From the NCBI GenBank assembly GCA_015660645.1, contig DQKS01000100.1, positions 1 to 38,345 of the forward strand: a stretch of 38,345 nt of DNA, given 5' to 3'. The notes beneath the pieces are model-generated. The model saw only the letters and a list, made by a program, of their open reading frames with translations. It had not been told where the DNA came from and did no database searches. Positions 19,892 through 22,898 of this stretch are shown here, piece by piece. Both the position numbers and the translations under genes were made by a program. Every line of letters starts with the position of its first letter. Position 1 is the stretch's first letter. Source of the DNA: Gammaproteobacteria bacterium (GTDB lineage: Bacteria; Pseudomonadota; Gammaproteobacteria; Magnimaribacterales; Magnimaribacteraceae).

Positions 19892-20764
19892 CTACCACTT
19901 TGTAAGTTCTGCTACTCCTTTGCCTATATCAGCTGGACTCTTTACCGTATAAACCCCAGCAGCTTCTAAAGCCTTAAATTTTTCTTCAGCTGTTCCTTTT
20001 CCTCCTGCTATGATTGCTCCAGCATGACCCATTCTCTTCCCTGCTGGTGCTGTTACTCCGGCTATATAGGACACAACAGGCTTGGTTATATTTGCTTGGA
20101 TAAACTGAGCTGCTAATTCCTCTGCCGTACCTCCTATCTCTCCCACCATTACTATAGCCTCTGTAGCGGGGTCTTCTTGGAACATGCCCAAAATATCTAT
20201 AAAACTTGAACCAGGTATCGGATCCCCGCCTATGCCAACACAACTACTCTGTCCAAAACCAAAATCCGTTGTTTGTTTAACGGCTTCATAGGTCAAAGTG
20301 CCAGACCTAGAAATAATACCCACCTTACCTGGTAAATGAATGCTTCCTGGCATTATTCCCATTTTACACTCACCAGGCGTAATTATTCCTGGACAGTTGG
20401 GTCCAATCAATCTAACTCCAAGATCATCACAACGCATTTTTACTTCTAACATGTCTAAAGTAGGGACGCCTTCGGTAATGCAAACAATTAGCTGAATTCC
20501 AGATTCAGCAGCCTCTAAGATTGACTCTTTACAGAACCTTGCCGGAACAAAAATAATGCTGGCTGTGGCATTCGTCTCTTTAACCGCATCTAATACTGAA
20601 TTAAACACAGGTAATCCTAAATGCTCTTGGCCTCCTTTACCGGGAGTAACACCTCCAACAAGTTGAGTACCATATTCAATACATTGTTCACAATGTTGTG
20701 TAGCTTGACCTCCGGTAAAGCCTTGGCAAATCACTTTGGTATGTTTATCAATCAGTATGCTCAT
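19892..20764 (-). CDS. sucD: Succinyl-CoA synthetase alpha subunit
   Basis: 290 aa; [66 protein letters not shown]. Confidence 0.98.
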
Positions 20765-21933
20765 TGTGTAATTCCTTTTGCTGCTTTTACAGCCAGTTCA
20801 GCTGCCTGCTCTAAACCAATTGCAGTCATAATATTTAAATTACATTTAGCTAATTTTTTTATACCTAATTCTGCGTTGTTTCCTTCAAGGCGAACCACGA
20901 CTGGAACTTCTACCCCCATGTGGGTTAAGGCATCTACTATTCCATCAGCTATTACATCGCACCTAACGATTCCACCAAAAATATTTATTAGGACGGCTTT
21001 CACATTTGAATCAGAAAGTATAATCCTAAAAGCTTCTGAGACTCTTTTCGAATCCGCAGCTCCTCCAACGTCTAAGAAATTAGCAGGCTCTCCACCTTGG
21101 AGTTTAATAATGTCCATTGTTCCCATGGCTAATCCAGCACCATTGACCATACATCCTATGTCTCCATCCAACGCTACATAGCTTAGGTCCCATTCCGCTG
21201 CTTCTGCTTCTCTTTCATCCTCCTGTGACGGGTCCCTCATCAAGCTAAGTTCTTCTTGCCTATAGAGTGCATTTGAATCAATATTAATTTTTGCATCGAC
21301 GCATAATAGGTCACCTTGAGTGGTAATCACTAAAGGATTTATTTCAAGCAATGTTAAATCTTTTTCTAAAAATAGACGTACTAACCCCATGTAAATATCT
21401 CTGAATTGTATTTTTTGCCTATCGTCTAAACCCAAAGAAGAAGACAATTTATCAGCCTGGTTCTCGTTTGGACCTTGGACAGGATCTATAGCAACCTTAA
21501 AAATTTTTTCTGGAGTTGCCTCTGCTACATCTTCGATATTAACTCCGCCCTCATTGGAAGCCATCATTACAAGCCTTTGGGAGGTTCTATCAATTACGGC
21601 TCCTAGATAAAGTTCGTCTGCAATATTTGAGCAAGATTCTACAAGGATCTGGTTAATTGGCTGTCCCTTTTCATCTGTCTGGAAAGTGACCAAGTTTTTT
21701 CCTAGCCATTTATTGGCAAAATCTTCTACACCTTGAATATCATCAACCAGCTCAACTCCACCAGCTTTACCTCTTCCTCCCGCGTGAACTTGAACTTTGA
21801 CAACCCAACGATCTCCACCCAATGAGAGCGCCGCTTCTTTAGCACCTTCTGCACTATCAGAAGCAACTCCATTTGAAACGGCTATACCATAACTTCTGAG
21901 TAATTGCTTTGCTTGGTACTCATGTAAATTCAT
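20761..21933 (-). CDS. sucC: Succinyl-CoA synthetase beta subunit
   Basis: 390 aa; [60 protein letters not shown]. Confidence 0.98.
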
Positions 21934-21948
21934 TTTTTTTCCCTATTT

Positions 21949-22141
21949 TTATATGGATTGTTTTCTTTTTACGGACAATACAGCTTCATGAAAAGCTTCA
22001 GAGAGACTTAAATTTCTATGCATAACTGATGCAATATCTTCTGTTTTAATACCTTGACTCAAAGCACTGAGAAAAGCGAATCATAAAAAGAGAACTCTCT
22101 GGACTTGGACCAACAACTATTACATCGTATTGATCGGCCAT
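21949..22141 (-). pseudogene. lpd: Degraded dihydrolipoamide dehydrogenase (lpd) remnant: N-terminal ~23 and C-terminal ~42 residues only, frameshifted
   Basis: After the sdhB stop, AAAGGGG SD-like then ATG: MADQYDVIVVGPSPESSLFMIRF (cf. Lpd DVIVIGAGPGGYVAAIRA); in another frame ...FLSALSQGIKTEDIASVMHRNLSLSEAFHEAVLSVKRKQSI* (cf. Lpd C-terminus xxEFGxSAEDIAxxxHAHPTLSEAxxEAALAV); ~400 residues missing. Confidence 0.8.
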
Positions 22142-22154
22142 CCATCAATCCCCT

Positions 22155-22898
22155 TTATGACCCTTTTCTGCTGATAAGTTTGTTTCTAATGTTAGAAATT
22201 GCTTCGGTTGGATTTAAACCTTTAGGGCAAACAGAAACACAATTCATAACTCCATGACATCTATATAAGCTAAATGAATCTTCCAAGTCATCTAGTCTTT
22301 CCTCTGTAGCTTCATCCCTTGAATCCGCAATAAAACGCCAAGACTGAAGAAGAGCTGCTGGTCCTAAAAATTTATCAGGATTCCACCAAAAAGATGGACA
22401 GGCGGTAGAACAACAGCCACAAAGGATACATTCATAAAGACCATCTAATGATTCACGCTCTTGTGGACTTTGTACTCTCTCTTTTTCTGGATTCTTACTC
22501 TTGGTGATTAAATAAGGTTGAACTTTCTCTAGTTGATCGAAGAACGTCTTCATGTCTACAATTAAATCCCTAATAACAGGCAAGCCTGGCATTGGTCTGA
22601 GTGTTAATTTATTTCTTTTTATAGCTTCCGATAAAGGCATTATACAGGCCAGACCATTTTTTCCATTAATGTTCATTCCATCAGATCCGCATACTCCTTC
22701 CCTACAAGAGCTTCTGTAGGATAACGAAGGATCTTTAACTTTTGCCAGATGTAAAGCATCCAAAACCATAATGTCTTTATCAGTCGGAACTTCGATATCT
22801 ATGTCTTGCATGTAGGGCTTATCATCGATCGAAGGATTAAAACGATAAATGTTCATGCGTAAAGTCTGAAGATGTGAAACAGGTATTACAGCGCTCAT
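22155..22898 (-). CDS. sdhB: Succinate dehydrogenase iron-sulfur subunit (start may be the internal MNIYRFNPSID)
   Basis: 247 aa; CREGVCGSDGMNINGKNGLAC, CILCGCCSTACPSFWWNPDKFLGPAALLQ, CHGVMNCVSVCPKGLNP. Confidence 0.98.
   Translation of the reverse strand: MSAVIPVSHLQTLRMNIYRFNPSIDDKPYMQDIDIEVPTDKDIMVLDALHLAKVKDPSLSYRSSCREGVCGSDGMNINGKNGLACIMPLSEAIKRNKLTLRPMPGLPVIRDLIVDMKTFFDQLEKVQPYLITKSKNPEKERVQSPQERESLDGLYECILCGCCSTACPSFWWNPDKFLGPAALLQSWRFIADSRDEATEERLDDLEDSFSLYRCHGVMNCVSVCPKGLNPTEAISNIRNKLISRKGS

Follow-up and report, generated by a model that had tools for sequence, protein, structure and literature searches.

An lpd remnant between sdhB and sucC in a SAR86 genome and the apparent stages of its loss among relatives

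Fragments of lpd in the sdhB-sucC gap

The window, that is, the whole stretch of 38,345 nucleotides analysed here, belongs to a SAR86 draft genome (G000; 1.42 Mb, 102 contigs, 86% complete) and carries on its minus strand an operon with the order sdhC-sdhD-sdhA-sdhB, a 221-bp gap, and sucC-sucD. Each of the six is an open, complete gene that matches its own family, in keeping with the original prediction, made from the letters alone, that the operon outside the gap looks functional. The same prediction described the gap, put at about 220 bp, as a scar of lpd (E3) that retains an SD-like AAAGGGG and an ATG; the distance from the stop of sdhB to the start of sucC proved to be 221 bp (22154-21934, minus strand), and both elements could be read directly (Table 1).

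Table 1. Features of the sdhB-sucC junction in the window
Feature	Position	Strand	Evidence
sdhB, complete, upstream flank	22155..22898	-	NCBIfam match above cut-off; 75-93% identity in same-family genomes
SD-like AAAGGGG over the sdhB stop (TAAAGGGG) and former lpd ATG (22141-22139)	22139..22158	-	Direct reading
N-terminal lpd remnant (codons 1-25) with a decayed glycine motif	22067..22141	-	Alignment, profile
CTCAG, common to both fragments: deletion junction, ~400 codons gone, frame changed	22067..22071	-	Alignments
C-terminal lpd remnant with its own stop, homologous to residues ~429-465 and on to the end	21949..22071	-	Profile (E=7e-6), DNA alignment with relatives
sucC ribosome-binding site, purine-rich, derived from the last lpd codons	21934..21948	-	Alignment with intact lpd 3' ends
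sucC, complete, downstream flank	20761..21933	-	NCBIfam match above cut-off

Translation of the gap gives MADQYDVIVVGPSPESSLFMIRFSQCFESRY and a stop in one frame, and FAFLSALSQGIKTEDIASVMHRNLSLSEAFHEAVLSVKRKQSI and a stop in another. The longest frame spans 43 aa and does not encode a full-length E3 with its FAD motif, CxxxxC and HPTxSE. Following the ATG at 22141, MADQYDVIVVGPSPESSLFMIRFSQ aligns without gaps to residues 1-25 of the Lpds of relatives (score 59 against same-family Lpds, the best of 5000 shuffles reaching 44), as expected of the Lpd-like start with a decayed glycine motif that had been proposed; its frame continues to a stop at 22046. The second fragment, LSALSQGIKTEDIASVMHRNLSLSEAFHEAVLSVKRKQSI, lies in a different frame that ends at a stop at 21949, comprises ~37-40 C-terminal Lpd codons, and aligns to residues ~429-465 of 475 (score 76, best of 5000 shuffles 63). 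The pentamer CTCAG is common to both fragments, and the deletion junction is therefore placed there; the two ends agree with the predicted internal loss of about 400 codons. The redox-active CxxxxC region falls within the deleted part, its second half being absent, and the His position of HPTxSE is Asn in the C-terminal fragment.

A search for Lpd matches with profiles had been suggested as a check, and its outcome depended on the profile: generic Pfam and NCBIfam models matched neither fragment, an outcome that by the prediction's own terms would count as a refutation, while a lineage profile built from six same-family Lpds recovered both. Across all frames of the window, this profile ranked that of the C-terminal fragment first (E=7e-6), which upholds the proposed frame change followed by an Lpd tail, and the other remnant frame second (E=0.0033).

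The same junction in relatives

We read the junction in 23 further genomes of the window's family (f1), whose genus g1 consists of the window species and two others, G001 and G002. An intact lpd of 475-480 codons lies exactly between sdhB and sucC in five f1 genomes (G004, G008, G009, G012 and G015). G003 has a 463-bp remnant in which the first ~50 codons are fused in frame to the last ~95, with one internal stop, and remnants of 165 bp in G001 and 223 bp in G002 have break points that differ from the window's. This comparison across relatives settles the identity of the remnant. Gaps of 79-124 bp in genera g4 and g6 were searched for Lpd traces and none were found, and in four loci of family f3 sdhB and sucC are 17-66 bp apart, as measured by match ends.

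The examined loci of families f2 and f4 have the order sdhB-sucA-sucB-lpd-sucC, and a genome scan yielded 57 loci with lpd between an sdhB and a sucC 3-8 kb apart; together they confirm this order as ancestral. The original prediction had read sdhCDAB-(sucAB)-lpd-sucCD from the remnant, which by itself indicates just lpd; the position of sucAB comes from the f2 and f4 loci. According to these relatives, sucAB was once present and was lost earlier than lpd, at family level. The arrangement is that of the Gammaproteobacteria in which lpd is linked to oxoglutarate dehydrogenase, such as Pseudomonas and Marinomonas: flanks, place and direction of lpd match, whereas the window lacks sucAB and retains lpd as two out-of-frame ends.

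The final codons of lpd (AATAGGAAAAGAAA in G009) also serve as the sucC ribosome-binding site, and lpd stop and sucC start overlap in the intact genes of genus g2 and in G003. A deletion extending further would therefore probably be costly.

Gaps fully devoid of lpd contain boxes ahead of sucC that are conserved across species, ATTTATCC..TACAAT in g6 (e.g. L027) and TAATATAG in g4 (e.g. L026), which are possibly new promoters. No promoter was found inside the window's own gap, promoter-like sites in the region being fewer than in shuffles.

Partner enzymes and remaining copies of lpd

Gene censuses covered 35 f1, 9 f3 and 17 f2 and f4 genomes. From the distribution of the ferredoxin oxidoreductase (KOR) and from Ramfelt et al. 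2024 (PMC11582366) we infer that f1 is Magnimaribacteraceae, f3 RedeBAC7D11, f2 Suzuki and f4 CHAB-I-7. sucA is absent from f1 (0/35) and f3 (0/9), whereas each of the 17 f2 and f4 genomes has it; KorA was found in 30/35, 4/9 and 0/17, respectively, a clean complement except for five f3 genomes with neither. With no sucA in f1 and a ferredoxin oxidoreductase in 30 of its 35 genomes, the operon lpd would have lost its main partner. In both SAR86 families concerned, the ferredoxin enzyme is reported by Ramfelt et al. 2024. The lineages and the enzyme replacement are identical to those of the ferredoxin-linked alternative TCA cycle that they describe in SAR86; among the main-text passages found, none deals with lpd or the sdhB-sucC junction. 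Beyond that paper, a literature search on lpd decay or SAR86 oxoglutarate dehydrogenase found nothing relevant.

KorA lies ~19 kb from sdhB in G001, G002 and G003, and in G002 a 671-aa NAD(P)-binding iron-sulphur protein comes first, followed by KorA and then KorB. In the single-contig genome G007 (L162:5021-8020; G007:C1, ~1048020-1051020), korA is reduced to its last quarter, which stands directly after der together with an intact korB. Its first three quarters and the segment that lies in between in relatives are missing, through either a deletion or a misassembly.

The five f3 genomes without a match to the sucA or KorA family (G048, G051, G054, G057 and G060) are 91-93% complete. All nine f3 genomes (these five with G036, G039, G042 and G045) lack lpd, E2, sucA and gcvH, so that every lipoyl-linked complex searched for is missing.

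The E2 census found none in g1 or in g4 and g6, the two genera nearest to it. gcvH is present in 31/35 f1 and 0/9 f3 genomes and lpd in 26/35 and 0/9, a distribution suggesting that glycine cleavage is what still uses Lpd. At most one lpd per genome scored above the cut-off. The search for a second, intact lpd in the window genome, which had been suggested, located one at C70:35386, adjoining two DUF6644 genes and a GPH-type symporter. Neither gcvH nor gcvP turned up in this genome, in which the gcv-linked contig ends early. G003 has its intact lpd in an lpd-aceE-E2 (pyruvate dehydrogenase) cluster. In G001 and G002, which have the remnant and gcvH, no second lpd was detected, the assemblies being broken or incomplete at the expected place; with that neighbourhood missing or at a contig end, we do not claim that these two genomes truly lack lpd.

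In a tree of Lpds, the operon-unlinked proteins of g1, g4 and g6 group among the f2 and f4 operon Lpds, apart from the f1 operon Lpds. A single clade of all f1 Lpds is not rejected (p-AU 0.153); given this value, replacement by a foreign lpd is not claimed, and the unlinked f1 copies could reflect either relocation or transfer within SAR86.

Timing and explanation of the loss

Counted against the intact lpd of G012, differences at codon positions 1/2/3 amount to 6/5/7 in the window (codons 12-25), 10/11/11 in G002 (codons 12-32), 2/3/9 in G001 and 2/4/7 in G003, all of them small counts; the intact genes of G008 and G012 differ by 6/3/13 (codons 12-32). The absence of a third-position excess, on these small counts, indicates that the window remnant is probably under relaxed selection. 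The gap thus shows these marks of a pseudogene of dihydrolipoyl dehydrogenase (lpd, TIGR01350): homology above chance, an intact orthologue at the same place, disabling changes and apparently relaxed selection.

The flanking genes bear on whether the deletions arose once or several times. In a tree of sdhB and sucC, g1, g4 and g6 group together, and parsimony requires just two losses within f1, which would suit a single deletion in the ancestor of g1 (or of g1, g4 and g6) that was trimmed later. The third positions of sdhB and sucC, however, show identities of only 42-67% between the g1 species, of which there are three, and with flanks so near saturation a remnant dead since the g1 ancestor should be almost unrecognisable. 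Moreover, G001 and G002 are sisters in this tree (support 89/87) and yet differ in their extent of decay (14/63 against 32/63 differences, p=0.0015), G001 having kept a coding-like pattern where that of its putative sister is flat. We consider one ancestral deletion unlikely, though it keeps appreciable weight; on these small counts, the data suggest that lpd was inactivated separately, at different times, after the g1 species split. Inactivation in the window genome looks younger than that split yet old enough for the codon-position pattern to have flattened, so the "recent" of the original prediction is to be taken in a relative sense.

Two other readings were considered. An assembler might have dropped the middle of a full-length lpd, as the fragmented state of the draft would allow, but such a collapse would not cause the remnant's own decay (the frame change, the lost glycine motif, the catalytic His replaced by Asn) or its flat codon-position pattern, and separate assemblies of both sister species have different remnants at the same place. 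Given these remnants and the intact copies in relatives, we regard an assembly collapse as very unlikely. Alternatively, the start site and about the first 11 lpd codons may have been selected as a short translated leader, through which sucC is coupled to translation of sdhB and expression of sucCD is sustained, in which case lineages that lost the leader would have gained a promoter in the gap (TACAAT in g6, TAATAT in g4). The purine-rich site, the ATG and the motif MA-x-x-[YF]-D-x-I-x-[IV]-G are indeed kept in all three g1 species, the codons after the motif have decayed in G000 and G002, and the stop/start overlap in g2 and G003 implies that coupling existed once. Set against this, the three genomes have no more than ~33 bases of this kind in common, their frames end differently (at 31, 44 and 64 codons), and g4 and g6 manage without any such frame, so that both the leader and its promoter corollary seem improbable. 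The 5' end of lpd may have been kept by chance or recency.

We therefore favour, with a probability of about 0.82, a non-functional lpd remnant whose operon copy decayed after its partner complex was replaced, separately in several lineages. The NAD-linked 2-oxoglutarate dehydrogenase complex would have been replaced by a KorAB-type 2-oxoacid:ferredoxin oxidoreductase, its substrate being presumed, and sucAB removed. This would have left lpd with its other partners only, namely glycine cleavage and, in a few genomes, pyruvate dehydrogenase. An lpd copy elsewhere would cover these, leaving the operon copy free to decay by internal deletions that, in separate lineages, spared the end next to sdhB and the ribosome-binding site of sucC.

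The lpd remnant is a known type of feature and a case of ordinary gene decay. Pseudogene remnants in reducing genomes likewise combine internal deletion, frame change and loss of motifs and codon-position bias, and this one is unusual only in that several stages of loss occur in one gene, at one junction, among close relatives. Its interest is this staged, parallel decay: whole gene, fresh remnant, old remnant and empty gap form a readable series of parallel loss in an abundant ocean lineage. The operon lpd was apparently lost after its metabolic partner had been replaced, and the order and timing of the switch from a dehydrogenase complex to a ferredoxin enzyme become traceable at a single junction.
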